DNA from: Acidobacteriota bacterium
GTDB lineage: Bacteria; Acidobacteriota; Thermoanaerobaculia; Thermoanaerobaculales; Sulfomarinibacteraceae
Assembly: GCA_022340665.1 (NCBI GenBank)
Contig: JAJDNM010000012.1
Location: forward strand, 27,078-91,077
Direction: 5' to 3'
Length of the DNA: 64,000 bases
Part shown: piece by piece, positions 5,634-58,798 of the stretch
Numbering within the stretch: position 1 is the first letter of the stretch
How the letters are laid out: each line of letters begins with the position of its first letter
Notes under the pieces: generated by a model
Told to the model about the DNA's origin: nothing
The model's database searches: none
Seen by the model: only the letters and a program-made list of their open reading frames with translations
Translations under genes and position numbers: made by a program

Positions 5634-5741
5634 ATTCGGAATTCTGAAATAGGAATTCTGAATTCCCACCCACCCTCTCCCCGACCCGGAAGGTGGGGGG
5701 AGGGCGAGATTCAGAATTCCGAACTCCGAATTCCCAATTCG
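5634..5741. repeat. Hairpin repeat element, family A, with CCCACCC core
   Basis: The left arm consists of GAATTC-type units (GAATTCGGAATTCTGAAAT and so on), then a C-rich core (CCCACCCACCC) facing a G-rich strand (GGTGGGGGG), then a right arm of CAGAATTCCGAACTCC-type units complementary to the left arm. It starts at the M28 peptidase stop. Confidence 0.75.
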
Positions 5742-5782
5742 AGAGAAGCTTGATTTTCCCCGACAGTGTGTCGATCTGTCGG

Positions 5783-6454
5783 TCAGTCGTTCAGCTTCTT
5801 GTTCTTCCAGTACTTGGTGCCTGACAGGTCGGCGTTGAGCATCAAACCCTTCTCTGTGAGCTGGTAGATGGCGAGGCCGTTGACGAAGTCGGTCCTCACC
5901 TCGGTCGCAGCCTTCCCAGCCGCCGCTGTGGCCCCGGCGTCCGCCTGCCAGCCCTGGTTGACGAAGCTGTCGAATGTCTTCGGGTCCTCCATCAGGAACA
6001 CTACCTGGTACTTGTCGATGCCGGCCCCGAATCCAACGCCGCCGGTGCCCATCTTCATGTAGGTGCGTTCGCCGGTTTTCTTATTCACAGCCACCCCGTT
6101 GCCGCCACCGCCGGAGAATCCCCAGGCGAGCTTGAGGTTGTCGAAGACCGCCCAGCCATAGGCGTGGGAGTAGAGATCTTTCGCCTTGCTGTTCTCGGCG
6201 AAGAGCTCGTCGAGGCTCTCCTTGGCCATCGCATCGATCTTGGCCGCTTTGGCCTCCTGTTTCATCGTCTCCCACTCCGGCTCGTCGGCGGGTGCTTGCT
6301 GGGCCGGTGCTTGAGCCGCTGGCGCTTCATTTTTCACGGCCTCGGCCTCGCGGGCGACCTCGGTAGACTCCTCCTTCGAACAGCCCAGTCCGGGCAGAAC
6401 GAGCAGCCCGACGACCACCACCATCACGATGCCCATTGCCTCTTTCCTCATCAT
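5783..6454 (-). CDS. SYLF/YSC84-domain lipoprotein
   Basis: A 223-residue protein with a type II signal peptide (lipobox LGLGC at about 22-26), then an Ala/Pro/Glu-rich linker (about 30-60), then a SYLF (Ysc84) domain. The domain shows the typical hydrophobic glycine-rich segments YGWAVFDNLKLAWGFSGGGGNGVAV and MGTGGVGFGAG, and ends LNADLSGTKYW. SYLF domains bind lipids; bacterial members are envelope proteins of unclear role. Start is one of two adjacent ATGs after GGAGG. A 7-bp stem (5760-5782) abuts the stop but has no T run. Confidence 0.85.
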   Translation of the reverse strand: MMRKEAMGIVMVVVVGLLVLPGLGCSKEESTEVAREAEAVKNEAPAAQAPAQQAPADEPEWETMKQEAKAAKIDAMAKESLDELFAENSKAKDLYSHAYGWAVFDNLKLAWGFSGGGGNGVAVNKKTGERTYMKMGTGGVGFGAGIDKYQVVFLMEDPKTFDSFVNQGWQADAGATAAAGKAATEVRTDFVNGLAIYQLTEKGLMLNADLSGTKYWKNKKLND

Positions 6455-6711
6455 TATCCTCCTTGTGTATGCAGGCTTCGAGAGAGAAAGCTCACTATAG
6501 CGTAGAATGCGGCATCAACAAAGAAGTAGCCGGGCTATGATCTGACCGATGGCATCGGCAAGGACGGGCAGCTCCGCGACGAGTGCCTCTCGCGCATCCC
6601 GACACCCCTGCGATGCTGGAAGAATGAGGAAGCAGGAGTCTGGCAATCGGGAATCCCACTCCTCCTCATCCAACCTGAGGGGTGGGAGATCCAAAATTCG
6701 AAATTCGAAAT

Positions 6712-7638
6712 TCAGTTCGACAGCAACTTGATGTTTCCTGACGACGTGTCGACGTGCACATCGATTGCGTTCGGTCCGCCGTCGAGCTTGAGCTCGTCCT
6801 TTCCCCGAATCAGGGCGGGGAAGTCCGAGTGAATCCCCCCGGAGCTCACCTCTACCAGACCCGAGATCTTGGTGTATTCCGGGAAGGTCAGGGTCACGTT
6901 TCCGGACGACGCGCTTGCACGGACGGTGGTGTTGGGAGGGATCTCGTCCCATTGGGCCTTGATATTGCCCGAGGACGCGCTGAACTTCCCCACTCCGGTC
7001 AGACCGGAAACGTCGATGCTTCCAGACGAGGTGTCGACCTTTGCCAGCGCCGCGCCGCCTTCGAGGCGTACGGAGCCCGAAGAAGCATCAGCGGTGAATT
7101 CCGCCAGCGGGCGGGTCACGTTGGCGTGGATTGAGCCTGACGAGAGGTCTGAGTGCAGCTCTCGCATTGCGCCGTCGACCATCAAGCCCCCCGAAGAGGC
7201 ATCGAACGTGACTTTGGAGTTTCCGAAATCCCCGATGATCTTGGCTTCCCCAGATGAAGAGTCGATGAGTAGGTTGACGTCAGGAGGCATCAGGACGGTC
7301 ACCTGGCCTTTCGCCTTGACGTTCTTCCAGCTCCAGCCTTTGCTGCGCGTCGAGCGGATGAGGAGACGATTGCCCTGGTCTTCGAAGACTGGACTCAGGT
7401 CCTGGGCCGCCTTGGCCGATGAACTTCCGTCGCCCTTGACGGTGATATCGACGGTCACGTCGACCGATCCGCCGGGCTGAGTGCGCACCTCGACATTGTG
7501 GAACGACACGTCGACTACTACCGTGTCTCCCGGGCTGGCGTCGAAGCGGTGCTTTTTATGGATATCGATGTCGGCAGCGGCACTGCCGGCCAGCAGGAAA
7601 CACACAGCGGCTGCGATCAAGATGGAACGTACTCGCAT
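6712..7638 (-). CDS. DUF4097-family exported beta-repeat protein
   Basis: After a signal peptide (residues 1-24, ending AAADID) the protein consists of about eight repeats of roughly 20-25 residues. Each carries an SSG tripeptide (for example DASSGGLMVDG, DLSSGSIHANV, DTSSGSIDVSG, SASSGNIKAQW), giving a right-handed beta-solenoid-like DUF4097 fold. The ATG at 7638 follows AGGAGG; longer open frame upstream overlaps the preceding gene and lacks a signal. The family is often linked to envelope stress or adhesion genes, with no defined biochemistry. It follows the small lipoprotein gene by 56 bases and is probably cotranscribed. Confidence 0.85.
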   Translation of the reverse strand: MRVRSILIAAAVCFLLAGSAAADIDIHKKHRFDASPGDTVVVDVSFHNVEVRTQPGGSVDVTVDITVKGDGSSSAKAAQDLSPVFEDQGNRLLIRSTRSKGWSWKNVKAKGQVTVLMPPDVNLLIDSSSGEAKIIGDFGNSKVTFDASSGGLMVDGAMRELHSDLSSGSIHANVTRPLAEFTADASSGSVRLEGGAALAKVDTSSGSIDVSGLTGVGKFSASSGNIKAQWDEIPPNTTVRASASSGNVTLTFPEYTKISGLVEVSSGGIHSDFPALIRGKDELKLDGGPNAIDVHVDTSSGNIKLLSN

Positions 7639-7694
7639 GTCACATACCTCCTTCGTTCGCCGAAACGGGGGCTGTCCTCTGCCGTCACGGCCTT

Positions 7695-8183: not shown

Positions 8184-8228
8184 TTGACCTCCTACCCGAT
8201 CTGGACAACGCAGAACGAGGGAAAAGGT

Positions 8229-9647: not shown

Positions 9648-9687
9648 GATGCCTCCAAGGAGTCCGTGTCGGCGTCCAGAGTAGAAC

Positions 9688-9803
9688 GATACTGGATGCT
9701 AGATGCTTGATGCTGGATCCGCCCACCCCCTTGTGAGATCTTTGAAAGGAACTGCTTTCTCATGTATCGAGTATCCAGCATCGAGCATCCAGCATCCAGA
9801 ATC
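9688..9803. repeat. Hairpin repeat element, family B (GATGCTGGATGC arms, GCCCACCC core)
   Basis: The left arm repeats GGATGCTAGATGCTTGATGC. The core begins GGATCCGCCCACCCCC. The right arm carries the reverse complement (GAGTATCCAGCATCGAGCATCC). It lies between the divergent pyk and GYD-domain genes. Related copies are at 15506 and 43346. Confidence 0.75.
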
Positions 9804-9885
9804 CCGACGAGTTTTCGCCACTGAAGTGTGCATCACGACGACCAAGGTATTATCTTTGAAACGAAAACCGAACAGGAGGTGCCCG

Positions 9886-10188: not shown

Positions 10189-10212
10189 GCTGCGATTCAC
10201 GTGGTTATGCCA

Positions 10213-10251
10213 GAACGTTTAAACGTTCGAACGTTTCAAGGTTGAACGTTA
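10213..10251. repeat. AACGTT-type repeat (family C) at the parC stop
   Basis: Units GAACGTTTAAACGTTCGAAC and GTTGAACGTTAA. The parC TAA stop (10251-10249) lies inside the last unit. The self-complementary units can fold into short hairpins. Confidence 0.75.
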
Positions 10252-12249: not shown

Positions 12250-12322
12250 TTCGGCTCCGGCATTTGCTGTGGGTGGTTCCAGGTGGTCGGCTTCGGCGAC
12301 AGCGTGCCCCTTGTGCGGACAC

Positions 12323-12424
12323 GAATTCGGAATTCGGAGTTAGGAATTAGGAATTCCCGAACTTCCCCCCGGCAGTACCCCACATCATTCTGAAACTCAA
12401 AACTCAAGACTCAAAACTCTCAAC
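12323..12424. repeat. Hairpin-like repeat element, family A variant, 3' of parE
   Basis: The left part has GAATTCGGAATTCGGAGTTA and AGGAATTAGGAATTC units. The C-rich core is CCCCCCGGCAGTACCCC. The right part has ACTCAAAACTCAAGACTC units, an imperfect counterpart. It lies between the parE stop and the parC start. Confidence 0.6.
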
Positions 12425-12432
12425 TTGCGACG

Positions 12433-14256: not shown

Positions 14257-14436
14257 TTCGCCTCAGTTACACCCCTCGCCTGTGCCTAGAATAGCACCAC
14301 GACCATTGGCTCGACAGAGTTTTGATGGACGTAGCCGGTTCTGAGAATGAACGCACACGCCGTGCGCGTCGCCAATGATAGCCTACCGTGGAATAGGGAC
14401 GCCTGATTCTCAGGACGGACCCCTCGAAAGGAAGCA

Positions 14437-15505: not shown

Positions 15506-15624
15506 TGGATCCTCGATGCTGGATGCTCGATGCTGGATCCGCCCATCCACCCGTGTTGACCCGATATGGCGAGTCAACTCGAACGATCGAGTATCGAGAA
15601 ACGAGAATCGAGGATCAAGAACCG
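15506..15624. repeat. Hairpin repeat element, family B
   Basis: The left arm is CTCGATGCTGGATGCTCGATG. The core is GGATCCGCCCATCCACCC. The right arm is GATCGAGTATCGAGAAACGAGAATCGAGG, partly drifted. It lies between two convergent stop codons (15489 and 15640). Confidence 0.72.
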
Positions 15625-15639
15625 ATGTTCGCGAAGCTC

Positions 15640-16758
15640 TCAGCGACCTCTCACCGGCTGCCACTCGTCCACCACCTCGGTACCGCGCAGGACGTGATAG
15701 CGGCCGAAGCAGGCTGAAGACAGGCAGGAATGGTTGGGGACGACGCGGATGCAAGTTCCGGGGCGGAGGGCCTCGACACCGGGGCCAGCCAGGGTCCCGT
15801 GCTCCTGGGTGAGTGCGACGAGGCGGAGGCCGGGTAGAGGGTGTTGGTCCCAGACAGTCACCGGCAGACCGTAACCGCACTCGGGATCGACATGGGTCGG
15901 ACTCCTGTCCAAGCTCAGGGCGAGCGCACCGGCGTCGATGACGGCACGCGAGCGGTCCGGATCGACGCTGATCACGGTCGCCAGAACCGAAAAGGCCACG
16001 TCATCCACATCACAGCTGCCGATTGCGAGCTGGAAGGCATCGAAAAAGACGTAGTTTCCGGGCCGGACCTCTGTGATTTGGGTGAGGTCGTCGACTGCAC
16101 GAATAGTCGGGGTCGAGCCGATGCTGACCTCGGGGATATCGACCCCAAGGTCGCGAATCTCGGCCGCGAATGCGGCCATCAGGTTTCGCTCTTCGCAGGC
16201 GATGTCGTACACCTCCGATCGAGAGCGCGCGGAGTAGGCGTGGCCGGCGTGAGTCAAGAGGCCGCGGAAATCGATGTGGTCGGAGTCCGCCAGCCGGCGT
16301 ACCAGGAACTGTGCGACATCGGTCGCAGGGTCGACGCCTGACCGTCCACCGCCGCAATCGACCTCGAGCAGGACCGGAAGGTGTGTTCGTCGCGAGGATG
16401 CAATCTCTTCGATCGCTCGCGCGGTCTCGGGGTGATCCACCAGTAGATTCAGGCTGTGGATCTCGGCGTGAAGATCCGCCGCGTCGTTGATCTTCTGTGG
16501 AGCGACGGGCACCGCATAAGTAATGTCGCTGAAGCCTCGCGCGGCGAACGCGTGGGCCTCGGCCAGAGTCGACACGGTGATGCCGCCGAAATGGAGACCG
16601 GTTTGAATTCGGGCGATCTCCACGCACCTGTGGGTCTTGACGTGGGGACGCAACCGCACGCCGAGCCGCAGAGCCTTTTCCGCCATTCTCCTGGCATTCG
16701 CCTCGAGCCGATCGAGGTCGACCAGCGCGCACGGTGTCGACAGCGCGTCAACCTGCAT
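15640..16758 (-). CDS. D-serine dehydratase/D-threonine aldolase-like PLP enzyme
   Basis: A fold-type III (alanine-racemase-like) PLP enzyme of 372 residues. Lys41 in RPHVKTHR is the expected Schiff-base lysine. The metal site motif near the C-terminus is PNHSC (His343, Cys345). In this family a His-Cys pair is reported for Zn-dependent eukaryotic-type D-serine dehydratase, whereas D-threonine aldolases have His-Asp; I therefore favour D-serine (or 3-hydroxy-D-Asp) dehydratase activity, but substrate is not proven. No Shine-Dalgarno is evident at the ATG. The gene is separated by a family C repeat from the acyl-CoA synthetase gene upstream on the same strand. Confidence 0.82.
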   Translation of the reverse strand: MQVDALSTPCALVDLDRLEANARRMAEKALRLGVRLRPHVKTHRCVEIARIQTGLHFGGITVSTLAEAHAFAARGFSDITYAVPVAPQKINDAADLHAEIHSLNLLVDHPETARAIEEIASSRRTHLPVLLEVDCGGGRSGVDPATDVAQFLVRRLADSDHIDFRGLLTHAGHAYSARSRSEVYDIACEERNLMAAFAAEIRDLGVDIPEVSIGSTPTIRAVDDLTQITEVRPGNYVFFDAFQLAIGSCDVDDVAFSVLATVISVDPDRSRAVIDAGALALSLDRSPTHVDPECGYGLPVTVWDQHPLPGLRLVALTQEHGTLAGPGVEALRPGTCIRVVPNHSCLSSACFGRYHVLRGTEVVDEWQPVRGR

Positions 16759-16782
16759 TGGCGGAGAGTATCAGAGCGCGGC

Positions 16783-16821
16783 GACGTTCGAACGTTGACC
16801 GTCAAAACGTTTAAACGTTTC
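16783..16821. repeat. AACGTT-type repeat (family C)
   Basis: Units GACGTTCGAACGTTGACCGT and AAAACGTTTAAACGTTT, 44 bases downstream of the acyl-CoA synthetase stop on the minus strand. Confidence 0.72.
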
Positions 16822-16864
16822 CCTCGTGGAATCCTCGGCGGTCGCCCTATCTCGGGCATTGCAG

Positions 16865-18832
16865 TTACTGGTACTTTCGGCGCAGCTCGCGGCGCACGAG
16901 CTTGTTGGAGGCGGTGCGGGGAAGGGATTCAACTACCACCAGATCGTGCAGCTTGAACAGGGGGTTGAGTTCCTGCGCGATGGTTGTGCCGAGGATTCTC
17001 TGCAAATCGTCCGGTGCACGGTCATCGGCAAGGACCGCGAAGACGACGAGCTGCTCAGCGCCTTCGCCTCCCGGCTGCACGCCTATCGCGGCCGCTTCGT
17101 ATACCGATGGGTGACTCTCGATGACCCGCTCGATCTCGAGCGACGAAACCTTGATGCCACCGAGATTCATGGTGTCGTCGGCGCGGCCCTGGGCGCGGAA
17201 ATACCCGCCCGGGAATCTGGCCACGAGATCTCCGTGGCGGCGCAGGACCTCTCCGTCGGGTCCGGCCGGGCATCCCTCGTAGTACACCTCGTCGTGGTCG
17301 CGGTTGAGCAATGTCTGCGAAAGCCCGATCGATGGAGGAACCAGGTACAGCTCGCCCTCCTCCCGCGCGGCTACGGGCTGTCCATCATCGTCGAGCACGA
17401 CGAGGTCCAGACCGAGCGCCGGGGTCGTGAAACTGGCGGGGGAGGCGGGCTGAAGAACCGTACCGGTGAGGTGGCCGCCGCCGATCTCGGTGCCGCCGCA
17501 GTATTCGATAATCGGTGCGCGATAACCGGTGCGGCTCATGAGCCACAGGTAGTCCTGCCGATTGGAGGGCTCTCCGGTCGAGCTCAGAACGTTGATGCGG
17601 GACCAGTCGATGCCGTCACAGGCGCCCGAGTCGCGCCAGGCGCGCACTAATGACGGCACGACGCCGAGCATGCTGACGCCGACTTTCGCGACGAATTCGG
17701 CGAAGCCCCGTCCCGTAGGAACACCCTCGTAGAGGGCGATGCAGCCACGGTTGATGAGGGTGGCGTAGATCAACCACGGGCCCATCATCCAGCCGATGTT
17801 GGTCGGCCAGGCGACCACGTCGCCACGCTGGATGTCATGGTGGAAGTGGCCATCCATTGCGCACTTCATCGGCGTCAGATGGGTCCACGGGATGGCCTTC
17901 GGGTCGCCGGTCGTGCCCGAGGAGAACAGGATGTTGGTGATTGCTTCAGGATGTGCGGTAAGTGCCTCGAACTCGGTTTCGTCGCTCAGGAAATCCCACC
18001 ATAGAATGTCTCCGTCGCGCAGGGACGCCACCGAGAAGTCCTCGGACGCGATCACGATCGCGCGCACGGAACCCGCGTCACGCACCGTGTCATAGAGCCC
18101 GATGGTGCGCGCGCCGCGCTCAAAGCTCGAAACAGTGATGATAGCGGCGGCATGCGATATCTCGAGACGGCGAGCGACCTCTGGAGCGGCGAAGCTGTCG
18201 GCGATCGAAACGACAACGCATCCAGCGCGAATGATTCCCAGATATGCGGCGACGCACTCGAGGTTCATCGGCATGTAGAGAGCGATGGCGTCGCCGGGTG
18301 AGAAGCCGGCAGCCGCGAGGCCGTTGGCGACCAGATTGGAGAGCATGTCGAGTTCATCGTAGGTGACCGCTTCCACCTGTTCGGATGCCTCGTGTCCGAT
18401 GACGACGGCGATCTCGAATCCGTCGTCCGGGAAGCAGCTGGAAACAATGTTGAGCTCTGCGCCTGGGAGCCATCTTGGCTGCCGGGCGCCTGCGGAGATA
18501 TCGAGAACCTGACTCGGCGGCCGGGAGAATACGACGCCGAGCCGATCGATGACTCGTTGCCAAAATTCGGCTCGGTTGGCGGAGGTCCAGCGGTGAAATG
18601 CGCGGTAGTCATCAAAACCGAGCTGGTTCATCAGCGCGGTGAGATTGGCGTGACGAACGCGGTCGTTCCCAGGCAACCAGACCGGCGGTGGGGGGAGAGA
18701 GAGATCGCGATTCGCGAAGATTTCGTTGAAACGTTCCCACTGCTCGTGAAAGGAGATTTCCGGATCTCGTTGGACGGTCTCGAGGTACCGCTGCCAGTTT
18801 TCCGCCTGTGGATCGTTGCCGAAATCCGTCAA
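16865..18832 (-). CDS. AMP-forming acyl-CoA/acetoacetyl-CoA synthetase-like enzyme
   Basis: An ANL-superfamily ligase of about 655 residues. It has an N-terminal ACAS-type extension (FHEQWERFNEIF, WLPGAELN), the P-loop-like ILFSSGTTGDPKAIPWTH, STGEPSN, YCGGTEIGGG, RHGDLVARFPGGYFRAQGRADD with the hinge Asp, and the C-terminal catalytic lysine region PRTASNKLVRRELR. The family activates carboxylates to acyl-CoA via acyl-AMP; the sequence resembles the acetyl/acetoacetyl-CoA synthetase branch and plant AAE17/18, so the substrate is open. The TTG at 18832 overlaps the TGA of the upstream gene (TTGA), giving a coupled start; the frame is open farther upstream but inside that gene. Confidence 0.85.
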   Translation of the reverse strand: MTDFGNDPQAENWQRYLETVQRDPEISFHEQWERFNEIFANRDLSLPPPPVWLPGNDRVRHANLTALMNQLGFDDYRAFHRWTSANRAEFWQRVIDRLGVVFSRPPSQVLDISAGARQPRWLPGAELNIVSSCFPDDGFEIAVVIGHEASEQVEAVTYDELDMLSNLVANGLAAAGFSPGDAIALYMPMNLECVAAYLGIIRAGCVVVSIADSFAAPEVARRLEISHAAAIITVSSFERGARTIGLYDTVRDAGSVRAIVIASEDFSVASLRDGDILWWDFLSDETEFEALTAHPEAITNILFSSGTTGDPKAIPWTHLTPMKCAMDGHFHHDIQRGDVVAWPTNIGWMMGPWLIYATLINRGCIALYEGVPTGRGFAEFVAKVGVSMLGVVPSLVRAWRDSGACDGIDWSRINVLSSTGEPSNRQDYLWLMSRTGYRAPIIEYCGGTEIGGGHLTGTVLQPASPASFTTPALGLDLVVLDDDGQPVAAREEGELYLVPPSIGLSQTLLNRDHDEVYYEGCPAGPDGEVLRRHGDLVARFPGGYFRAQGRADDTMNLGGIKVSSLEIERVIESHPSVYEAAAIGVQPGGEGAEQLVVFAVLADDRAPDDLQRILGTTIAQELNPLFKLHDLVVVESLPRTASNKLVRRELRRKYQ

Positions 18833-19563: not shown

Positions 19564-19597
19564 CCAGCGAGTATAACGCTGCCCACCCGCCCAAGAC

Positions 19598-19664
19598 TGC
19601 CCACAGATGACACAGATATGCACAGATCCACACAGAATCGATCATCTGTGTCATATCTGTGGAC
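19598..19664. repeat. CACAGAT-type inverted repeat (family E) next to a GCCCACC core
   Basis: The left arm (CACAGATGACACAGATATGC) and right arm (ATCATCTGTGTCATATCTGTG) are near-perfect reverse complements around CAGATCCACACAGAATCG. The motif GCCCACCCGCCC lies just outside it at about 19580. It sits 3' of the NnrU gene. Confidence 0.75.
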
Positions 19665-20373: not shown

Positions 20374-20405
20374 GAATTAGGAATTAGGAATTAGGAATTA
20401 GGAAT
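20374..20405. repeat. GAATTAG tandem repeat (family A, single arm)
   Basis: Four consecutive units of a 7-base GAATTAG repeat, just 3' of the glycosyltransferase stop (minus strand). Only one arm of the element seems to remain. Confidence 0.75.
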
Positions 20406-22095: not shown

Positions 22096-23070
22096 TCAGG
22101 CCCGATCGATCGGGAACGATACGACCTTTGAGAGGTCGCGGGTGCCGGAGGCCACCATGAGCAGGCGATCGACGCCGAGAGCCACGCCCGCGCATTCCGG
22201 CAAGCCGTGCGCGAGAGCGGCGAGCAGGCGCCCATCTACCGGAATCTCGGGCAGTTCTCGCCCTGTTCTCGCCTCGAGGTCCGCCTCGAATCGGCGCTGC
22301 TGCTCCGCCGGATCCGTCAGCTCATGGTAGCCGTTTGCGAGCTCGACGCCCTCGACGAAGACCTCGAAGCGCTCCGCAAACGGTGGGTCGCCGTCCCGCA
22401 CCCTGGCCAGGGCCGCCTGCGATGCCGGGTAGTCATGAATGATCGTCGGCTGGCAGTGGCCGAGCCTGGGTTCGATGACGTGCGTCAACACGAGGTCGAG
22501 CAAATCGTCCCTCGACAGATCAGCGAAGTTCTCGACGCCGAACTCTTCGACCAGTCGCCGAAGTGCATCATCCGTGTCGGCGAATGGGTTGACATTTGCG
22601 TAGCGCTCGAAGGCCTCGGTGTAGGTGATGCGTTCAGACGATCTACTACCGAGGAGAAACGCCAACAGTGCGTCGATTTCATCCATGAGGTGATAGTGGT
22701 CCCATCCGGGGCGGTACCATTCAAGGATCGTAAATTCCGGGTTGTGGCGGCTTCCGGCCTCGCCATCACGAAATGCCTTACAGACCTGGAATATCGGACC
22801 GCTATCAGCAGCCAGAAGCCTCTTCATCGCGAACTCGGGTGAGGTCTGGAGGTAGAGCGTGCGGCCGTCAGCGGCTCCAGGCCCCCTGTACTGGCAGCTC
22901 AGGGCGTGGAGGTGGAGGTCGGTGACCGGGGCCGAGCCGAGGAGCGGCGTTTCGACCTCCATCACACCTCGTTCGGAAAAGAAGGTGCGGATCTTGGCGA
23001 GGATCTGGGCGCGAAGGCGGAGAGCATCCTCGGAAGCTGTCGGGCGCCAATCAGGCGGCAGGTCGACCAT
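22096..23070 (-). CDS. epmA: EF-P beta-lysyltransferase (lysyl-tRNA synthetase-like EpmA)
   Basis: A 324-residue class II aminoacyl-tRNA-synthetase-like protein lacking the N-terminal anticodon-binding domain. This separates EpmA/GenX/PoxA from LysRS. Class II motifs are visible: motif 1 region VMEVETPLL, motif 2 FQVCKAFRDGEAGSRHNPEFTILEWYRP, and motif 3 GVALGVDRLLMVASG. EpmA attaches (R)-beta-lysine to a conserved lysine of elongation factor P, which is encoded by the next gene upstream (62 bases away). The divergent epmB completes the pair of enzymes. Confidence 0.95.
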   Translation of the reverse strand: MVDLPPDWRPTASEDALRLRAQILAKIRTFFSERGVMEVETPLLGSAPVTDLHLHALSCQYRGPGAADGRTLYLQTSPEFAMKRLLAADSGPIFQVCKAFRDGEAGSRHNPEFTILEWYRPGWDHYHLMDEIDALLAFLLGSRSSERITYTEAFERYANVNPFADTDDALRRLVEEFGVENFADLSRDDLLDLVLTHVIEPRLGHCQPTIIHDYPASQAALARVRDGDPPFAERFEVFVEGVELANGYHELTDPAEQQRRFEADLEARTGRELPEIPVDGRLLAALAHGLPECAGVALGVDRLLMVASGTRDLSKVVSFPIDRA

Positions 23071-23092
23071 TGATGCTCACGGTAGGAAAGGT

Positions 23093-23127
23093 TCTCACGT
23101 TCAAACGCCGAAACGTTCCAACGTTGG
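23093..23127. repeat. AACGTT-type repeat (family C) 3' of efp
   Basis: Units CACGTTCAAACGCCGAAACG and TTCCAACGTTGG, beginning five bases after the efp stop (minus strand). Confidence 0.7.
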
Positions 23128-23132
23128 TTCCG

Positions 23133-23696
23133 TTAGGCGCGAGAGACATATTCCCCGGTGCGAGTATCCACCTTGATTTTCTCGCCGATCTGGACGAAAA
23201 GCGGTACACGGATGACCGCACCCGTCTCGGTGGTCGCGGGTTTATTGCCGCCGGAAGAGGTATCGCCCTTGACTCCGGGATCGGTTTCGGTGATCTCGAG
23301 GATGACGAAATTGGGGGGCGTGACGACGATCGGATTGCCTTCCCACAAGGTCACCATGCAGAGATCCTCCTCCTTGAGCCACTGCTGAGAATCACCGACC
23401 GCGTTGCTGTCGGCTTCGACCTGCTCGTAGGACTCCTGGTCCATGAAGGTCCAGGTGCGTCCGTCCGTGTAAAGGTACTGCATCTCTTTTTCCATCACGT
23501 CGGCGCCTTCGAAGGAGTCAGATGCCTTGAGCGTCTTTTCGTTGACTCGCTCTGTCTTGAAGTTCTTGTACTTGACCTTGGTGAAGGCCTGGCCCTTGCC
23601 CGGCTTGACGAAATCGGTGCCGACGATCACGCACGGGTCTCCGTCGACCATGATCTTGAGTCCGACCTTGACCTGATTCATGTTGTAGGAAGCCAT
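23133..23696 (-). CDS. efp: Elongation factor P
   Basis: A 187-residue EF-P with three beta-barrel domains. It eases peptide-bond formation at polyproline stretches. The loop PGKGQAF places Lys34, the residue beta-lysylated by EpmA, exactly as in E. coli, matching the adjacent modification genes. The ATG at 23696 follows AAGGAG; a longer open frame upstream has no support. The C-terminal motif [16 protein letters not shown] is the standard EF-P signature. Upstream, 53 bases separate it from the divergent epmB start. Confidence 0.97.
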
Positions 23697-23749: not shown

Positions 23750-24766
23750 ATGAAACGGAAGCATGAAGCCCCCTGGTCAACCGGCGCATGGAGGAAGCAG
23801 CTCGCCGATGTCATTACCGACGTGGGCGAGCTGCTGCAGATCCTCGAGCTCCAAGGCGGCACTCCGACGGGAATACCCTCCGCCCTGCGCAGATTCCCGC
23901 TCAGGGTACCACGTGCGTTCGTCGATCGGATGCGGCGAGGTGACCCTGCTGATCCGTTGCTGAGACAGGTCCTGCCGATTCTCGAGGAGGATCGCAAAGT
24001 GCCGGGTTTCACCACCGATCCTGTCGGCGAGTTGGTGTCGCCGCCTCGAGACGCCGTGCTCCAGAAATACCGCGGGCGCGCGCTGCTCATGGTCACAGGC
24101 ACCTGTGCAGTCCACTGCCGCTACTGTTTCAGGCGCCATTCTCCCTGTGCCGACCGTGAAACAGTTGCACGGGTTTTCGATGCTGCGATCCGCAGGATCG
24201 CCGCAGATCCAACGATCGCCGAAGTCATCCTCTCCGGCGGAGATCCGCTGACCCTGCCCGATACCGAACTTGGAGTGCTGGCGATGCGGCTGGCAGCGTT
24301 GCCGAACGTCCGGCGGCTGCGGATCCACAGCAGGATGCCAATCGTATTACCACAGAGGGTGGACACGAGACTCACGACCTGGATTGGTGGCCTTGAGGTG
24401 CCGGCAATCGTCGTGGTGCACGTCAACCACGCCAACGAGATCGATGATGACGTGCGGCGCGCCCTTGCCGCGCTGGCTGCGACCGGAGCGATCCTGCTCA
24501 ACCAGGCGGTGCTGCTCCGAGGCGTCAATGACACGGCGGATGTGCTTTCGAACCTCAGCCAATCACTTTTCGACGCCGACGTGCTGCCCTACTACCTCCA
24601 CATGCTGGACGCGGTAGAAGGAGCAGCCCACTTTCGGGTGCCGGACGAGGCGGCGAAGAACCTCTACGGGGAGCTGACCGCGAGGCTGCCGGGCTACCTG
24701 GTGCCGAAGCTGGTGCGGGAGGTCCCGGGCGCACCCGCCAAGATCGGCGTGGACCTTTGGTCGTGA
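23750..24766 (+). CDS. epmB: EF-P lysine 2,3-aminomutase EpmB (radical SAM, PLP)
   Basis: A 338-residue radical SAM protein with the Fe-S motif CAVHCRYC (Cys119, Cys123, Cys126), followed by the [14 protein letters not shown] insert, [10 protein letters not shown], and the C-terminal PLP-lysine region [15 protein letters not shown]. EpmB converts L-lysine to (R)-beta-lysine for EpmA. The short length (versus about 410 for catabolic KamA) and the efp/epmA neighbourhood support EpmB. It is divergent from efp, with both promoters necessarily in a 53-base gap. No epmC hydroxylase gene is present. Confidence 0.94.
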
Positions 24767-24769
24767 ATC

Positions 24770-24825
24770 GTTCGAACGTTGCAACGTCGAACGTTCAAAC
24801 GTCAAACGTTAGGCGTTCAAATGTG
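24770..24825. repeat. AACGTT-type repeat array (family C) between convergent stops
   Basis: About six degenerate units (TTCGAACGTTGCAACGTCG, GAACGTTCAAACGTCAAACG, TTAGGCGTTCAAATG). It begins right after the epmB stop and runs into the stop end of the convergent gene (24817), supplying that gene's last codons. Confidence 0.75.
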
Positions 24826-27012: not shown

Positions 27013-27126
27013 CGCAGCCTCTAATTGGAAATTGAGAATCAGAAAGTCGAAGGGCCACCCACTCGTGACGCGCGATGGTGAGGAGAGTTCAGAATTCCGA
27101 ATTCAGAATTCCGAAATCCGAATTCA
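27013..27126. repeat. Family A repeat element at the sufT stop
   Basis: The right arm (TTCAGAATTCCGAATTCAG and AATTCCGAAATCCGAATTC) reaches into the sufT stop at 27124. The left part (ATTGGAAATTGAGAATCAG) is a degraded partner. A CCACCCACTCG core lies between. Confidence 0.65.
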
Positions 27127-27447: not shown

Positions 27448-27577
27448 GAATTAGGAATTAGGAATTAGGAATGAGGAATTAGGAATGCCGCCCACAAACC
27501 CGAGACGATGGCGGGGAGTCACGACGCCCGAAGGGCGTCCGTAATTCCTAATGCCTAACTCCTCATTCCTCATTCTG
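27448..27577. repeat. Hairpin repeat element, family A, overlapping the sufU stop
   Basis: The left arm is GAATTAGGAATTAGGAATT with AGGAATGAGG units. The core is GCCGCCCACAAACCCG followed by a small GACGCCC-GAA-GGGCGTC hairpin. The right arm (ATTCCTAATGCCTAACTCC, TCATTCCTCATTCTG) is the reverse complement and contains the sufU TGA. Confidence 0.78.
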
Positions 27578-33969: not shown

Positions 33970-34053
33970 GAGTTTAGAGTTGAGAGATCCCGCCCGCCCC
34001 TCACAAGGCGGCGGGTGGGCGGGGGATAACTCTCAACTCTCAATTCTCAATTT
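33963..34053. repeat. Hairpin repeat element between convergent stops (family A variant)
   Basis: The arms contain a perfect 11-base inverted pair (AGAGTTGAGAG and CTCTCAACTCT). Inside it is a CCCGCCCGCCCC core opposite GGGTGGGCGGGGG. It joins the stop of the amidohydrolase gene and ends eight bases before the lon stop, so it may act on both convergent transcripts. Confidence 0.78.
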
Positions 34054-43293: not shown

Positions 43294-43345
43294 CGGACGC
43301 GGAGGATAACAGCAGAACGACGAATCTGGAACGACTCGTATTCTG

Positions 43346-43429
43346 CGGATGCTCGATACTGGATGCTCGATCTGCCCACCCAACCCGAAGGGGGATGTCC
43401 AGCATCGAGCATCCAGTTTCCAGTATCGG
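43346..43429. repeat. Hairpin repeat element, family B
   Basis: The left arm is GGATGCTCGATACTGGATGC. The core is GCCCACCCAACCCGAAGGGG. The right arm is CCAGCATCGAGCATCCAG with TCCAGTATC. The arms are reverse complements. It lies between the mtr terminator and the transporter start. Confidence 0.78.
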
Positions 43430-43451
43430 GCGGGTGGGAGGGGGCGCGAAA

Positions 43452-43473
43452 AAGGGGGCCTTGCGGCCCCCTT
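43452..43473 (-). terminator. Intrinsic terminator of the mtr operon
   Basis: A nine-base perfect stem (AAGGGGGCC / GGCCCCCTT) with loop TTGC. On the minus strand the second stem strand runs into TTTTTCGCG, 29 bases after the mtrB stop. Confidence 0.88.
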
Positions 43474-43501
43474 GGTAAAACCAATATCCGAAGGAATGCT
43501 C

Positions 43502-48978: not shown

Positions 48979-50046
48979 GTGAAACTGCCTCCTATGGTGA
49001 GCCGTTCAAAAACACTTGTTGTAGGCGTCGTAACCACGATCCTTCTGATCGTCGCTCTTGCAATCGTAATGCGGGATCGGCTGCGGTGCGCGGGATTTCC
49101 CGGTCCATCCGTATCGGCGAATGAGGTGCCCGCCGAAGCCGCCGCGGAGGGAACACTCCGCATCGCCTCGTGGAACGTGCGCAACTTTCCCCTCGACGAG
49201 CGTCCTCAGGAGGCTGATCTCGGGTATTCCCGCCGCACGAACATCTGTGATTTCGAAGCTGTGCTCGGTGGCCTGAAGGCGGATCTCTTCGGCCTCCAGG
49301 AGGTCAACGACATCCGTCGTTTCGGCCCGATCCTCGAGCGCGCCTGCGCTGGGAGGCCGATGCAGGTCAGATACTCCGCCCGCGGGGGGAGATTCGGTCA
49401 GCACCTCGCAATCGCGTGGGACGATTCGGCCCTCGAGCTGGTTGGAACCCCGGTTGACATCGTTGGGCTCGCGCTCGATCCCGGAATGAGGCCGGCGTTC
49501 GCCGGATATCTGCGGAGCCGCCGCGCCGGTGGCGTTGATTTCACTGTCGTGGTCGTTCATCTGGAGTCCGGGCCCGGGAACTTCGGCCAGCGGAGGAGCC
49601 AGAATCGGGCATTGGCCGCCTGGATCGAGGGCCGGATCGAGGAGATTGGCGATCCGGACTTCGTCGTCCTCGGTGACTTCAACACGATCGGCTCACCCCG
49701 CGGCGGTGTCGAGGGAGAACTCCAGTCGGTCGACGCAGTACTCGGCCGAGTCGGACTCGAACGACTGGAGAATTCGCTCGGCTGCACCTCGTATTGGGAA
49801 GGTCCGGGAGACCGCGACGGTGTCCAGACGCCTTCCCTGATAGATCACGTGTTTGTCCGTGGCTTCGGGCCGGAGATGATTGCCGCGCCCCTCGAGGTGT
49901 GGCTCCATTGCTCGAGATGGCAGTGCGGTGAGTTCATTTCCCGGCCCGGAGGAGAAGACGGCACTTTCTGGGACGTGTCCGATCATTGCCCGCTGACCTT
50001 CGAGATTCGCGATGCAAATCTCGAAGGTCAGAATTCTGAATTTTGA
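48979..50046 (+). CDS. Endonuclease/exonuclease/phosphatase-family protein, membrane-anchored
   Basis: A 355-residue protein with an N-terminal membrane helix (TLVVGVVTTILLIVALAIVM) and an EEP (DNase I-like) domain. Motifs seen: IASWNVRNFP (Asn), LFGLQEVND (metal Glu), VVVHLESGPGN (His), VLGDFNTIG (Asp/Asn) and DVSDHCPLTFEI (Asp-His). It probably cleaves phosphodiesters in the periplasm. Start GTG 48979 has GAGGAGG six bases upstream; ATG 48994 is the alternative. The Shine-Dalgarno can pair perfectly with CCTCCT at 48988-48993. The last residues (GQNSEF) are encoded by repeat sequence. Confidence 0.85.
   Translation: MKLPPMVSRSKTLVVGVVTTILLIVALAIVMRDRLRCAGFPGPSVSANEVPAEAAAEGTLRIASWNVRNFPLDERPQEADLGYSRRTNICDFEAVLGGLKADLFGLQEVNDIRRFGPILERACAGRPMQVRYSARGGRFGQHLAIAWDDSALELVGTPVDIVGLALDPGMRPAFAGYLRSRRAGGVDFTVVVVHLESGPGNFGQRRSQNRALAAWIEGRIEEIGDPDFVVLGDFNTIGSPRGGVEGELQSVDAVLGRVGLERLENSLGCTSYWEGPGDRDGVQTPSLIDHVFVRGFGPEMIAAPLEVWLHCSRWQCGEFISRPGGEDGTFWDVSDHCPLTFEIRDANLEGQNSEF
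49994..50030. repeat. Perfect 14-bp inverted repeat inside the 3' end of the EEP gene
   Basis: TGACCTTCGAGATT, a nine-base loop, then AATCTCGAAGGTCA. It lies in the last 53 bases of the coding sequence and directly abuts a family A element. There is no T run after it. Confidence 0.9.
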
Positions 50047-50125
50047 ATTCTGAATTCTGAATGTCGATCAGGCGACGCGTCTTTCTCATTGGGGGTGTGG
50101 GCGGGGATTCCGAATTCCGAAATCT
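50030..50125. repeat. Hairpin repeat element, family A, overlapping the EEP gene stop
   Basis: The left arm is AGAATTCTGAATTTTGAATT with TCTGAATTCTGAATG, containing the stop codon. The G-rich core is GGGGGTGTGGGCGGGG. The right arm is ATTCCGAATTCCGAAATC. Confidence 0.75.
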
Positions 50126-54886: not shown

Positions 54887-54903
54887 CAGTTTCTTCTCCA
54901 GTC

Positions 54904-55692: not shown

Positions 55693-55772
55693 GTTGCACC
55701 CGCTTCTTGTGGATTCTGCATTCTATCGGTTCCTCTGTCAAAATATGCGATCATGCCGGAGGATTGGCTTTA

Positions 55773-56819
55773 ATGGAGCTTCGGATCGCCACCCCGGACG
55801 ACTGGCACCTCCATCTTCGTGATGGAGAGCCGATGAAGGACATCGTCGCTCACAGCGCGCGGACCTTCGGCCGTGCTGTCGTGATGCCCAATCTGCGACC
55901 GCCGATCACCACCGTCGCCGATGCTCGCGCCTACCGACGACGCATCTGCAATGCAATTCCGGAGGGACTACCGTTCGAACCGCTGATGACCCTCTACCTG
56001 ACTGACAAGACGCCGCCTTCCGAGATCATCGAGGCCGCGGCGGATGCAATCATGGCGGGTGTCAAGCTCTATCCCGCGGGTGCCACGACGAACTCGGACG
56101 CCGGAGTGACCGACCTCGAGCGGGTGCTGCCTGTCCTCGAGGCGATGTCGGACCACGGCCTTCCGTTGCTCGTCCACGGAGAAGTCGCTGATTCTGGGGT
56201 CGACATCTTCGATCGGGAGATGGTCTTCATCGAGAACGTCCTCTCGCCTCTCATCGATCGGGTGCCTGGTCTCAGGGTGGTCCTGGAACACATCACCACG
56301 GCAGAAGCGGTCGGATGGGTGCTCCAGGCACGTTCCGGCGTGGCAGCCACGATCACCCCGCATCACCTGATGCTCGACCGAAACGCGATCTTCAACAACG
56401 GCATCAACCCACATCACTACTGCCTCCCGATTTTGAAGAGGGACACCGATCGGGAGGCATTGCTCTGGGCAGCCACCAGCGGCAGCCCGCGCTTCTTCCT
56501 CGGAACCGACAGCGCACCCCACGCTCGAAATGCAAAGGAGTGCGCGCACGGATGCGCGGGCATGTTTTCTGCCCACGCTGCCATCGAGTTCTATGCCGAG
56601 GTCTTCGAAGAGGCGGGTGCCCTCGATTTTCTCGAGGGCTTCGCGTCGTTTCACGGTGCGGATTTCTACGGCCTGCCACGGAATGAAGGCTTCGTCACAC
56701 TGGTTCGGGAGGAGTGGAGCGTGCCAAGCGAATTCGACTTCGGTGATGCCGAGGTGGTGCCCCTTGGTGCCGGTGGCACCGTGCGTTGGCGGCTGGTCGA
56801 GAGGAAAAAACCGAGCTAA
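55773..56819 (+). CDS. pyrC: Dihydroorotase (type II, PyrC)
   Basis: A 348-residue amidohydrolase that closes carbamoyl-aspartate to dihydroorotate in pyrimidine synthesis. The metal ligands are all visible: His12 and His14 (WHLHLRDG), carboxylated Lys98 (GVKLYPAG), His135 (LVHGE), His173 (LEHITT) and Asp246 (GTDSAPH). Length and sequence match the E. coli PyrC class. ATG 55773 (MELRIATPDDWHLH) is preceded by GGAGG at a ten-base distance. The pfp start lies 65 bases downstream. Confidence 0.97.
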   Translation: MELRIATPDDWHLHLRDGEPMKDIVAHSARTFGRAVVMPNLRPPITTVADARAYRRRICNAIPEGLPFEPLMTLYLTDKTPPSEIIEAAADAIMAGVKLYPAGATTNSDAGVTDLERVLPVLEAMSDHGLPLLVHGEVADSGVDIFDREMVFIENVLSPLIDRVPGLRVVLEHITTAEAVGWVLQARSGVAATITPHHLMLDRNAIFNNGINPHHYCLPILKRDTDREALLWAATSGSPRFFLGTDSAPHARNAKECAHGCAGMFSAHAAIEFYAEVFEEAGALDFLEGFASFHGADFYGLPRNEGFVTLVREEWSVPSEFDFGDAEVVPLGAGGTVRWRLVERKKPS

Positions 56820-56884
56820 ATTCGAGCATGCGCGAGCCGATTTCATTGGTTCGGCGGCGCGTCGCGATGCTCAAGGAGAGTGAA

Positions 56885-58090
56885 ATGCCGAAAACGAAGA
56901 AGTACCGTGGAACGATCGGAATCCTGACTGGTGGTGGCGATGTGCCTGGTCTCAACCCGGCCATCCGAGCCGTCACCGTGCGGGCCCTTCGTGAAGGCTT
57001 CAGGGTTCTCGGGATTCGCCGCGGATGGGCCGGATTGATCGAAATCGATCGTGATCGAAAGAACGGGTCCGACTACGTTATAGACCTTACCGAAGAGGTC
57101 GTGAACAAGGTCGGCCGGACGGGCGGGACCTTCCTTCACAGCTCGAGAACCCGACCGTCACACGTGCCGCAGACTGCCCTTCCGGATCACCTCAGAAGTC
57201 GTTACACGGAGGACGTCAACGATCTCACGGAGGAGGTGCTGGCCAACATCGAGTATCTCGGGATCGACACGATGGTACCGATTGGCGGCGACGACACACT
57301 CTCCTACGGTGTCCATCTGCACAGAAAAGGCGTGCCGGTGATCGCGCTTCCCAAGACGATGGACAACGACGTTCCAGGCACTGACTACTGCATCGGATTC
57401 TCGACCTGCGTCACCCGTACGATCGCAATGACCCATGCCCTGCGGACATCTGCCGGAAGTCACGAGCGGTTTCTGGTGATCGAGGTTTTCGGAAGGTACG
57501 CGGGCTTCACCGCATTGTTGCCAACGATGGCCGGTGCCGCCAACCGCTGCGTCATTCCGGAGCACCCCTTCGACATCGAGCACCTGTGCGAGCTGCTGTC
57601 CCGGGACCGCGAAAAGAACCCTTCAAAATACAGCGTTGTGCTGGTTTCGGAGGGTGCGACCTTCACCGGTGAGTCAGAGATGGTGTACGAGGATCAGGAG
57701 AAGGACATGTACGGCCACAAGAAGCTGGGCGGCGTCGGCGATCGTGTGGCCAGGGCCCTGCGTGAGTGTTCGCCGAAGTTCAACAACGGCCGTCGGGTCA
57801 ATGTCATCAACCAGCGGCTCGGGTACCTGGTGCGCTCGGGTGACCCGGACGCTCTCGACTCGGTGGTGCCCATGGCCTTCGGCAACCTCGCGATGGACCT
57901 GATTCTGGATGGAGTGTCCGGTCGTCTGGTAAATGTGCGCAACGGTCGCTACGACAACGTGCCAATCGATGTGGTGACGAGCCGGAAGAAAGTCGTGGAC
58001 GTGGGCAAGTTCTACAACACCGAACGCCTGCGGCCAAAGTACACGCGCTTCGAAGGCGCACCGGTGTTCATCATGACCAGCGACTACTGA
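56885..58090 (+). CDS. pfp: Phosphofructokinase, PPi-dependent type by signature residues
   Basis: A 401-residue PFK. IGILTGGGDVPGLNPAIR gives the phosphate-binding N-terminus. The donor-specificity positions read GGDD (134-137, Asp137 where ATP enzymes have Gly) and PKTMDND (Lys157 where ATP enzymes have Gly). Both mark pyrophosphate-dependent enzymes, which phosphorylate fructose 6-phosphate reversibly. MAFGNLAMDLI and the sugar-binding RLGYLVRSGDPDALD follow. AAGGAG precedes ATG 56885; an open frame upstream overlaps pyrC and is not supported. Confidence 0.92.
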   Translation: MPKTKKYRGTIGILTGGGDVPGLNPAIRAVTVRALREGFRVLGIRRGWAGLIEIDRDRKNGSDYVIDLTEEVVNKVGRTGGTFLHSSRTRPSHVPQTALPDHLRSRYTEDVNDLTEEVLANIEYLGIDTMVPIGGDDTLSYGVHLHRKGVPVIALPKTMDNDVPGTDYCIGFSTCVTRTIAMTHALRTSAGSHERFLVIEVFGRYAGFTALLPTMAGAANRCVIPEHPFDIEHLCELLSRDREKNPSKYSVVLVSEGATFTGESEMVYEDQEKDMYGHKKLGGVGDRVARALRECSPKFNNGRRVNVINQRLGYLVRSGDPDALDSVVPMAFGNLAMDLILDGVSGRLVNVRNGRYDNVPIDVVTSRKKVVDVGKFYNTERLRPKYTRFEGAPVFIMTSDY

Positions 58091-58094
58091 TGCC

Positions 58095-58235
58095 AAATTA
58101 GGAGTTAGGAGTTAGGAATTAGGAATCCCGCGCACCCGCCGACAGTATTTCGGATTTCGGATTTCCCACCCGCGCCCCCAGAGAATGGGGGGGGTGGTTG
58201 GGAATTCCTGATTCCTCGTTCCTAATTCCTCATTC
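58095..58235. repeat. Hairpin repeat element, family A, 3' of pfp
   Basis: The left arm is AATTAGGAGTTAGGAGTTAG with GAATTAGGAATCC. The core holds CACCCGCCGACAG and CCCACCCGCGCCCCCAG opposite GGGGGGGGTGG. The right arm is GAATTCCTGATTCCTCGTTC with CTAATTCCTCATTC. It ends six bases before the gloA Shine-Dalgarno. Confidence 0.78.
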
Positions 58236-58250
58236 AAACCGGAGGTGAAC

Positions 58251-58634
58251 GTGAGGCTTTTACACACAATGATTCGCGTCGGTGATCTCGACACGTCGAT
58301 TGCTTTCTACACGGAGGCGCTGGGGATGGAACTCCTCCGCAAGCACGACTATCCGGAGGGGAAGTTCACCCTGGCGTTCGTCGGCTACGGTGACGAGGAG
58401 TCGAACACCGTTCTCGAGCTCACCCACAACTGGGACACCACTTCGTATGAGCTTGGGACAGGCTTTGGTCACATCGCCATCGGCACCGATGACATTGTTG
58501 GCGCCTGCAACCGGGTACGCGAGTACGGCGGCGAGGTGACTCGCGAACCGGGTCCGATGAAGCACGGCACGACCGTCATTGCGTTCGTTAAGGATCCGGA
58601 CGGGTATACCATCGAGTTCATTGAGAGGAATTAG
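58251..58634 (+). CDS. gloA: Lactoylglutathione lyase (glyoxalase I)
   Basis: A 127-residue glyoxalase I very close to the E. coli enzyme: [20 protein letters not shown], then [23 protein letters not shown] and [13 protein letters not shown]. Metal ligands map to His5, Glu in LELTHNW, His in FGHIA and the Glu in IEFIE. The short form lacking Zn-type insertions suggests a Ni/Co enzyme. It converts the methylglyoxal-glutathione hemithioacetal to lactoylglutathione. GTG 58251 follows GGAGG and five bases; GTG 58245 is less well placed. The stop lies in a repeat. Confidence 0.95.
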
Positions 58635-58798
58635 GAATGAGGAATTAGGAATGAGGAATTTGGAATGAGGAATTAGGAATGCCGCCTACTTGGCAAATCG
58701 CATTTTGGATTTCGAATTTCGAATTTCGGATTTTCCATCCTCACCCCCAGAGAACGGGAGGGGGGCTGGGAATTCCTCATTCCTAACTCCTCATTCCA
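58626..58798. repeat. Long hairpin repeat element, family A, at the gloA stop
   Basis: The left arm has seven or more alternating GGAATTA / GGAATGA units. Next come a GCCGCCTACTTGG core, an inner arm of GGATTTCGAATTTCGAATTT units, a C/G-rich pair (TCACCCCCAG / GGGAGGGGGGC), and a right arm ATTCCTCATTCCTAACTCC. It overlaps the gloA 3' end. Confidence 0.8.

Follow-up and report, generated by a model that had tools for sequence, protein, structure and literature searches.

What are the facing arrays of seven-base repeats that recur between the genes of one 64,000-nt stretch of an Acidobacteriota genome (family Sulfomarinibacteraceae, contig JAJDNM010000012.1; the window, hereafter), and do arrays of quite different sequence belong to a single kind of element? 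The original prediction, made from the letters of the window alone, had proposed that several repeat families share one architecture, with two reverse-complementary arms of degenerate units around a C-rich core, and that one mechanism lies behind all of them. Our analysis indicates that these arrays are most likely non-autonomous mobile DNA resembling REPINs (hairpin-forming doublets of repetitive extragenic palindromic, REP, sequences) or MITEs (miniature inverted-repeat transposable elements), forming a real, modular superfamily of dispersed repeats and not a covarying RNA family.

The window was analyzed together with a larger sample of 857 kb from the same genome (the window plus 40 stretches; 21.7% of the 3.95-Mb genome, G000), in which array densities lean high because the sampled contigs were picked from those with GGAATTA matches. 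Four congeners with incomplete genomes (G001–G004; G001 is 65% complete), sharing 66–86% identity with this genome over aligned segments, were used for comparison; the G003 and G004 stretches were chosen from matches partly reflecting the elements themselves. Gene calls were made within this analysis. A scan for self-similarity at fixed shifts found 20 period-7 arrays in the window, along with multiples of that period, whereas five first-order Markov resamples averaged 0.0. Across the 857 kb, period 7 alone was strongly enriched, with 184 arrays (116, 58, and 24 at periods 14, 21, and 28), whereas each period from 4 to 30 that is not a multiple of 7 yielded 0–20, and a few words made up most of the arrays. 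A pattern of 3.7 GGAATTA units (up to three mismatches) had 154 + 134 matches in this genome and 0 + 0 in reverse order. The pattern occurred in six of 58 relatives, namely the four congeners (216, 113, 65, and 536 matches) and, from a second genus of the family, G006 and G017 (3 and 1 matches); the reversed control gave 12 matches in one relative (G014) and 0 in the others. No exact match to either of two patterns was found in viral contigs. Relatives of the window's phosphofructokinase suggest a Thermoanaerobaculales-like acidobacterium as its source. Among 80 loci fetched by means of this gene there were 12 period-7 arrays, mostly in other phyla and of other words; arrays of CGTGATG, TTTTCAG, GGTAATA, CCTTACT, and AATTGAG (L064, L066, L081, L095, and L108) were seen among Chloroflexi, Bacteroidales, a deltaproteobacterium, and Saprospiraceae.

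An arm is best read as four to five units, each consisting of a five-base word and a two-base linker, and array length peaks at 31–34 nt, the length of five words and four linkers. The words are GAATT, GAGTT, and GGATT (the GRRTT kind) or GATAC and GATGC (the GATRC kind), giving units of GRRTT-NN or GATRC-NN that carry no GGG tract. Neighboring linkers in this genome were equal in 110 of 178 GRRTT cases (25 when shuffled) and in 68 of 96 GATRC cases (55 when shuffled). The units point into a core, self-complementary by eye, in which CCC[A/G]CCC stands to the left and GGG[T/C]GGG to the right, and modules are sometimes chained (58098 and 58626). After exclusion of 44 of 249 arrays (25 other, 19 ambiguous), a C-rich motif lay within 20 nt on the core side of 95 of the 155 GRRTT arrays and on the far side of 11, the background being 6.3% of random 20-mers from element-free gaps and 6.7% of shuffled ones. 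Strict CCC[A/G]CCC or GGG[T/C]GGG sites in gaps lay within 25 nt of an array in 150 of 246 cases, while arrays with 25-nt margins make up 20% of gap sequence. The core motif had been expected to be commoner than in shuffled intergenic sequence, and because of this core-side frequency the expectation holds for the GRRTT kind; for GATRC arrays the motif is independent of side (19/50 on the core side vs. 17/50 on the far side), and by eye their left arms are flanked on both sides by C-rich stretches and their tails by none. The proposal of one architecture with a shared core is supported. Chance or low complexity, which had also been doubted, is ruled out by the excess of period 7 and by the core-side enrichment.

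The 108 core-anchored GRRTT arms in the 857 kb yielded 26 pairs that face each other at up to 160 nt (mean of 3.1 and maximum of 9 in 500 null placements), as well as three head-to-tail and zero back-to-back neighbors. The start-to-start distance was 69–85 nt in 25 of the 26 pairs, and 18 had two arms of the same class (mean 8.0 and maximum 15 when shuffled); the remaining 56 core-anchored arms had no facing partner passing the same test. The whole inverted doublet is the likely spreading unit. The 20 arms of the GAGTT class carry particular unit variants at fixed positions counted from the core (614 vs. 464 ± 16, a value reached by none of 2000 shuffles), and these variants recur in copies on many contigs; left arms read GAGTTTTGAGTTCTYAGTTTTGAGTTTTGAGTT, and right arms carry another variant. 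Positional fixation was weaker in the 37 arms of GAATT-AG (1568 vs. 1475 ± 26; 10 of 2000 shuffles). Exact copies of the left-arm master GAGTTCTYAGTTTTGAGTTTTGAGTT numbered 11 in this genome and 14, 6, 1, and 3 in G001–G004. A strand bias of this GAGTT master was considered and is not clear: CT[C/T]AG arms all lay on the + strand in the sample, the 11 exact masters were 9 forward and 2 reverse in contigs of arbitrary orientation, and with up to two mismatches the genome-wide count was 36 forward and 26 reverse.

Elements of the GATRC kind have, in addition, a body between the C-rich core and the tail, CCTTGACAATTCAGCNNGACGAYTTATCGATTYGTTGA, with profile matches at 28 places in this genome, two of them weak (E about 0.002). 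Ten of these came from the 857-kb sample and the others from 18 of 20 places fetched by similarity, so that 28 is a count and not a density; a first scan of the 857 kb alone gave 11 matches, two of them weak, and the similarity search scored 40 of 98 first-look candidates of this genome. The 3′ tail consists of heptamers that are alike within most copies and differ between copies (ATCCAGC, ATCCAAC, ATCGAGC, or ATCGAGA). Congeners match CCTTGACAATTCAGCNNGACGAYTTATCGATTYGTTGA in parts only, apart from a single match in G004 that is nearly full-length but weak (73%, E 0.0017), and G003 has its own version with other heptamers (ten matches including the source copy, E 3.3e-9 or better), which this genome matches well over the left 32–48 bases only and once, weakly, over bases 19–86 (72%, E 0.05). 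Position-fixed variants, a body in 28 copies, and species-specific expansions together indicate that elements disperse whole.

The arms are interchangeable in the strict sense, as had been proposed. Three copies of one G001 body end in CGCCTCCCCGCGCCGRT and then pass, at the same junction, into AAATTCG, AATTCCG, or AACTCAA arrays (L223, L226, and L168). Alignment of the three bodies across 58 bases scores 23.5–30.5, the maximum of 500 shuffles being 12, and the bodies also share GCGCRCCCARRCGCGGG at the other end; they were retrieved among 24 G001 loci via a shared string of 12–14 bases at one end, of which the likeness at the other end is independent. The body running from GCGCRCCCARRCGCGGG to CGCCTCCCCGCGCCGRT may be a G001-specific family; its end string, TCGCCTCCCCGCGCCGA, was in none of the other loci examined. 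Linkers of the GATRC kind change between species on both sides of the element, while the word and the start of the body are kept (CCCCTTGACA or near it in most copies seen). In this genome TG occurred in 32 and TC in 15 of 35 chains, in G003 GA occurred in seven of seven, and in G004 CG occurred in three of three and CA in two of three; the small samples from G001 and G002 held no GATRC chains. Outside the genus, a locus of G017 (L267) carries the core GGGTGGGCGGGGG followed by (ACGAGCA)4.

Within the window, the elements are as follows (forward-strand coordinates).

5632–5740: GAATT element; left arm 5632–5664, C/G core, right arm 5709–5740.
6620–6713: element with a decayed left arm (start approximate); C-rich/GGGGTGGG core, right arm (AAATTCG)3 at 6694–6713.
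9688–9807: GATRC element; arm 9688–9718, CCGCCCACCCCC, diverged body, arm 9764–9807.
12323–12425: mixed-arm element; left GAATT-CG/AG (GAATTCG/GAATTAG), C-rich core, right GAGTT-type (AAACTCA).
15506–15625: GATRC element; arm 15506–15540, CCGCCCATCCACCC, diverged body, arm 15586–15625.
20374–20405: lone (GAATTAG)4.6 array without core or partner.
27015–27125: element with a decayed left arm; GGGCCACCCAC core, right arm 27084–27125.
27448–27575: GAATT/GAATG-AG element; left arm 27448–27486, CCGCCCAC core, right arm 27542–27575.
33963–34052: GAGTT-GA element; core hairpin CCCGCCCGCCCC...GGCGGGTGGGCGGGGG.
43341–43427: GATRC element; CTGCCCACCCAACCC core, followed by an ordinary terminator-like hairpin.
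50028–50124: GAATT-CT element; left arm 50028–50062, G-rich half core only, short right arm 50107–50124.
58098–58235: chained element; left modules of GGAATTA type and then ATTTCGG type, core CCCACCC...GGGTGG, one right arm 58204–58235.
58626–58803: chained element built as at 58098; left modules 58626–58680 and 58702–58733, core, right arm 58771–58803.

The arms that had been claimed were present as described at the places given for them. Of the core, claimed for all of these elements, the element at 50030 has the G-rich half only; the list itself was incomplete, as it lacked the elements at 6620–6713, 12323–12425, 20374–20405, and 27015–27125; and the two arms of an element may differ, as they do at 12323–12425 (GAATTCG/GAATTAG on the left vs. 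AAACTCA on the right). The bodies of the window's GATRC elements are diverged and fall outside the set of 28 homologous bodies. A CACAGAT element at 19598, also put forward as a member, lacks period 7 and has its C-rich stretch outside the arms, and was excluded. This inverted repeat (19586–19663) has matches at 83–89% in G001, G002, and G004, with CACAGAG versions in G002 and G003 at the gap 16758–16865, and looks like a separate dispersed palindrome family. Another separate dispersed family, at gene ends, consists of AACGTT palindromes with a spacing of about two bases (948–989, 10210–10251, 16771–16812, and 24763–24804); it also occurs in gaps of G003 and G004, and in the window gap 23070–23133 such palindromes stand where the four congeners carry a GAGTT element.

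Orthologous gaps were compared with the omission of gaps longer than 700 nt and of pairs in which both gaps were shorter than 60 nt. The exact class was common to three of 11 co-occupied gaps and differed in eight, GAATT-AG and GAATG-AG being counted as different. Opposite the GAATT-CT element at 50028–50124, for example, the orthologous gaps hold GAATT-AG in G004 and GAATT-TC in G003, and the gap behind the phosphofructokinase gene (56786–58090) has GGAATTA-type arms here, TTTCGAA in G003, and GGAATTA and AACTCAA in G001; a more distant relative (L032) has an ordinary hairpin there. The mixed arm classes of 12323–12425 are the same at the G001 site, and a two-unit remnant marks the G002 site of the lone array at 20374–20405.

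Placement relative to genes was examined in the 857 kb, where 139 of 556 gaps held an array (36/94 convergent, 80/364 tandem, and 23/98 divergent). Among gaps of 40–149 nt, arrays were present in 23 of 50 convergent, 28 of 130 tandem, and 0 of 29 divergent gaps; at 150–249 nt the corresponding counts were 8/16, 33/75, and 13/27, so that longer divergent gaps are not avoided. In 63 tandem gaps GRRTT arrays lay a median of 4 nt from the upstream stop codon (within 25 nt in 50 of 63) and 57 nt before the next start, and of the 78 gene ends lying within 12 nt of an array, 40 were overlapped by it; the left arm of the window element at 5632–5740 begins within the TGA stop of the gene ending at 5633. 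Insertion into TGA stops was considered and set aside, there being no TGA excess beside arrays (48 TGA, 21 TAG, and 9 TAA vs. 499, 150, and 72 overall). GATRC arrays in tandem gaps did not hug the stop codon (n = 17, median 55 nt), nine of 26 GATRC elements lay between divergent genes, and among 26 cases in which both flanks were called, 18 had the body pointing the same way as the gene downstream. The string CCCCTTGACAA at the start of the GATRC body resembles a −35 box (TTGACA), e.g., in L271, L275, and G000:C90:83239, and it also stands in a G006 locus (L248) before what appears by eye to be a start codon. A promoter within the body was considered, but visual inspection showed no conserved −10 box.

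The expectation that the arms co-vary as RNA stems was not borne out. Arm pairing reached 82.7% of cells in 11 GAGTT elements (alignment A1, 11 rows, in which L147, L111, and L143 have other or decayed right arms) and 81.2% in 16 GAATT elements, where the deficit may partly stem from mixing two orientations of an asymmetric element. There was no compensatory excess, 496 of 500 shuffles pairing at least as well in both alignments, and covariation scores of 0.125 (GAGTT) and 0.077 (GAATT) were at or below the shuffled means of 0.129 and 0.090; a covarying RNA stem was therefore rejected for the arms. Sliding the partner by 1–3 columns lowered pairing to 22–53%, and the arms are therefore complementary as such, with mismatches recurring at set pairs (columns 22–102 and 27–97 of A1 are unpaired in most copies). 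The covariation result shows no selection for arm complementarity and is still compatible with hairpin formation. At gathering scores, Rfam gave no match in the window. What follows the GC core in the alignments is an arm and not a T tract. We also considered whether arrays replace terminators, and found no clear difference: ordinary terminator-like hairpins were present at 13 of 137 array-bearing gene ends and at 27 of 198 array-free ones (p = 0.30), and the fold energy of the first 120 nt was similar (−38.8 and −36.6, respectively). In the window, a terminator-like hairpin, GGGGGCCTTGCGGCCCCC, lies at 43450–43475, 3′ of the element at 43341–43427, and is kept in G001 and G004.

We consider it rather more probable than its opposite that these are gene-less dispersed elements in which the whole facing doublet around a C/G-rich core likely spreads, predicted to be moved in trans. 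At about 90–180 bp, with terminal facing arms and a location in gaps between genes, the elements have the terminal inverted repeats and non-coding character of MITEs. Copies would arise by transposition, catalyzed by an enzyme acting in trans for which the arm units may form an array of putative docking sites; arms would be exchanged by recombination between elements through the shared core, slippage within an arm would even out its units, and sites right behind stop codons would be kept since insertion there costs least.

Several observations weigh against such a history. Among the congeners no empty site or target duplication was seen, and at 66–86% identity they are too distant to delimit an insertion. 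The median identity of bodies is 78%, so that the copies look old, although one pair is identical over 38 bases. Orthologous gaps in G001–G004 were occupied in 11 of 12 cases where the window gap was occupied and in 12 of 29 where it was empty (Fisher p = 0.005, on gaps that are not independent because several species count per gap), and many sites may therefore be ancestral rather than fresh insertions. The core itself varies, the G001 body having CGCCTCCCCGCGCCGRT in place of GGGTGGG. With up to two mismatches the left-arm master has 36 + 26 matches here and 40 + 57, 10 + 4, 14 + 7, and 13 + 20 in G001–G004, where its reversed control gives 10 + 11 here and 2 + 7, 0 + 0, 8 + 2, and 1 + 1, and some of the one- or two-mismatch matches are plain GAGTTTT arrays. 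Searches with PF00078 and PF01797 found no mover, DDE transposases not being searched for. PF00078 (reverse transcriptase) had no match in this genome, G001, or G002 and one each in G003 and G004; retroposition, suggested by the uniform 3′ heptamer tails, was dropped for lack of a match in this genome. Matches to PF01797 (Y1 transposase) numbered 5, 1, 1, 6, and 0 in G000, G002, G003, G004, and G001, the last being rich in elements, and of six Y1 loci examined among these 13 matches one had an array, at the far edge of the locus, leaving mobilization by REP-associated tyrosine transposases (RAYTs) unsupported.

Placement just behind genes invites a functional explanation, in which heptamer arms and GC stem make bidirectional terminators or transcript-protecting stem-loops. 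GRRTT arrays do abut stop codons, gaps of 40–149 nt hold arrays in 23/50 convergent, 28/130 tandem, and 0/29 divergent cases, and the core is self-complementary by eye. Yet we regard this as unlikely: at 150–249 nt divergent gaps (13/27) are as occupied as convergent (8/16) and tandem (33/75) ones, nine of 26 GATRC elements lie between divergent genes, compensatory changes show no excess and some pairs are unpaired in most copies, and mixed arms persist at the G001 orthologous site. Ordinary hairpins, moreover, are not clearly rarer beside arrays (13/137 vs. 27/198, p = 0.30), fold energies are similar, and the gap at 43341 keeps its ordinary hairpin in three species, beside a GATRC element in this genome and a GAATT-AG one in G004. 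Growth in place, with polymerase slippage expanding heptamers and template switching making the second arm without transposition, would account for the evenness of linkers within a chain (110/178 equal vs. 25 shuffled), for GATRC tails that are uniform within a copy and differ between copies, and for the eight of 11 co-occupied orthologous gaps that differ in exact class; heptamers have been reported as the most abundant repeat class in most surveyed genomes, with slippage proposed (PMC4679880, in the part available to us). It appears improbable nonetheless, given that most arrays here are built from a few words, which also chain in congeners, that unlinked copies carry variants fixed at particular unit positions, and that a body outside the heptamers is common to 28 copies; template switching should also raise arm complementarity, which was observed slightly below the shuffles.

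Selection might instead keep the paired arrays as binding sites, with a nucleoid protein or chromosomal regulator recognizing one five-base word per seven bases. The constancy of the GATRC word beside a linker that differs between species, the tight spacing of the facing arms, and the continued occupancy of orthologous gaps would all fit, and paired heptamer arrays of Geobacter have been annotated as predicted binding sites of global regulators (PMC2700814, as far as that account was available). A position behind stop codons and absence from short divergent gaps hardly suit a promoter regulator, however, species-specific expansions better suit a selfish element, and a candidate protein is lacking; we hold this explanation to be very unlikely. 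Of the three mechanisms that the original prediction offered (mobile hairpins, an RNA 3′ structure, or a protein target), mobile elements are the best supported, and the notion of arms as covarying RNA stems falls away.

The original prediction knew of no named class that fits, which was too strong: in the portions available to us, two reports describe inverted pairs of heptamer arrays near stop codons in Xanthomonas (PMC4692102) and paired arrays of five heptamers in Geobacter (PMC2700814). The Xanthomonas (GGGAATC)n repeats have period 7, most often four units, and form 70 and 75 convergent opposite-strand pairs; they are mostly intergenic, lie near the 5′ neighboring open reading frame (ORF; average distance 28 vs. 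160 nt), overlap the stop codon or stand no more than 50 bp from it, and are few between divergent ORFs (PMC4692102, in the part at hand). The present elements are alike in having arrays of about four units (31–34 nt peak) in facing pairs, with GRRTT arrays near the stop codon (median 4 nt) and in 0/29 short divergent gaps, but they occupy 13/27 divergent gaps of 150–249 nt. They differ in that the Xanthomonas repeats, as that part describes them, carry a GGG tract in each unit and use one word, whereas here the G/C core is separate, words and linkers are several, and bodies are homologous. The class 3 sites of Geobacter metallireducens, predicted as regulator sites, are five tandem heptamers (16 sequences, consensus MTYCTGA), and the site classes there are mostly paired on opposite strands, as here; the available portions of that report mention neither a shared C/G core nor arm exchange (PMC2700814).

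REPINs and REP doublets, to judge from the parts of two accounts at our disposal (PMC3116915, PMC3733652), resemble the present elements as extragenic, non-autonomous inverted doublets that spread, fall into families and subfamilies, and form clusters as well as dimers with unlike halves. REPs, however, bear a GTAG or CGTC tag on a short single stem (same accounts), whereas the halves here are heptamer arrays; by eye, neither tag is present in the consensus of the 11 GAGTT and 16 GAATT elements, and unlike REPINs the six Y1 loci examined here have no neighboring pair. The TAACTGA repeats of Beggiatoaceae are likewise abundant intergenic heptamer arrays, of 2–6 units, but are direct, mostly upstream of start codons, with one inverted case and no core mentioned in the available part of the report (PMC4679880).

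The heptanucleotide short tandemly repeated repetitive (STRR) sequences of cyanobacteria are dispersed intergenic heptamer arrays as well; they are plain direct repeats and, unlike the present elements, are not known to have a core or a facing partner.

A bacterial excess of heptamers has been reported before without a settled cause, and here heptamer arrays are parts of dispersed modular elements with a searchable rule: the word is kept, the linker is free, the arms face each other, and the core is shared. A bolder possibility, which we put forward as doubtful, is that the arms are exchangeable cassettes of a five-base docking word at a seven-base pitch with a free two-base spacer that a single trans-acting mover ignores, with unrelated bodies and words combining freely around the C/G-rich core and the Xanthomonas and Geobacter arrays as other branches. 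If one protein does read a five-base word every seven bases and move DNA, a widespread tandem repeat would be a footprint of mobile DNA and not of slippage alone. In the literature searched, a shared C/G core, units of five plus two bases, and arms that are exchangeable between homologous bodies were nowhere described together. For Xanthomonas, inverted pairs of heptamers close to stop codons have already been published, and the elements described here are a new, modular variant on that theme.

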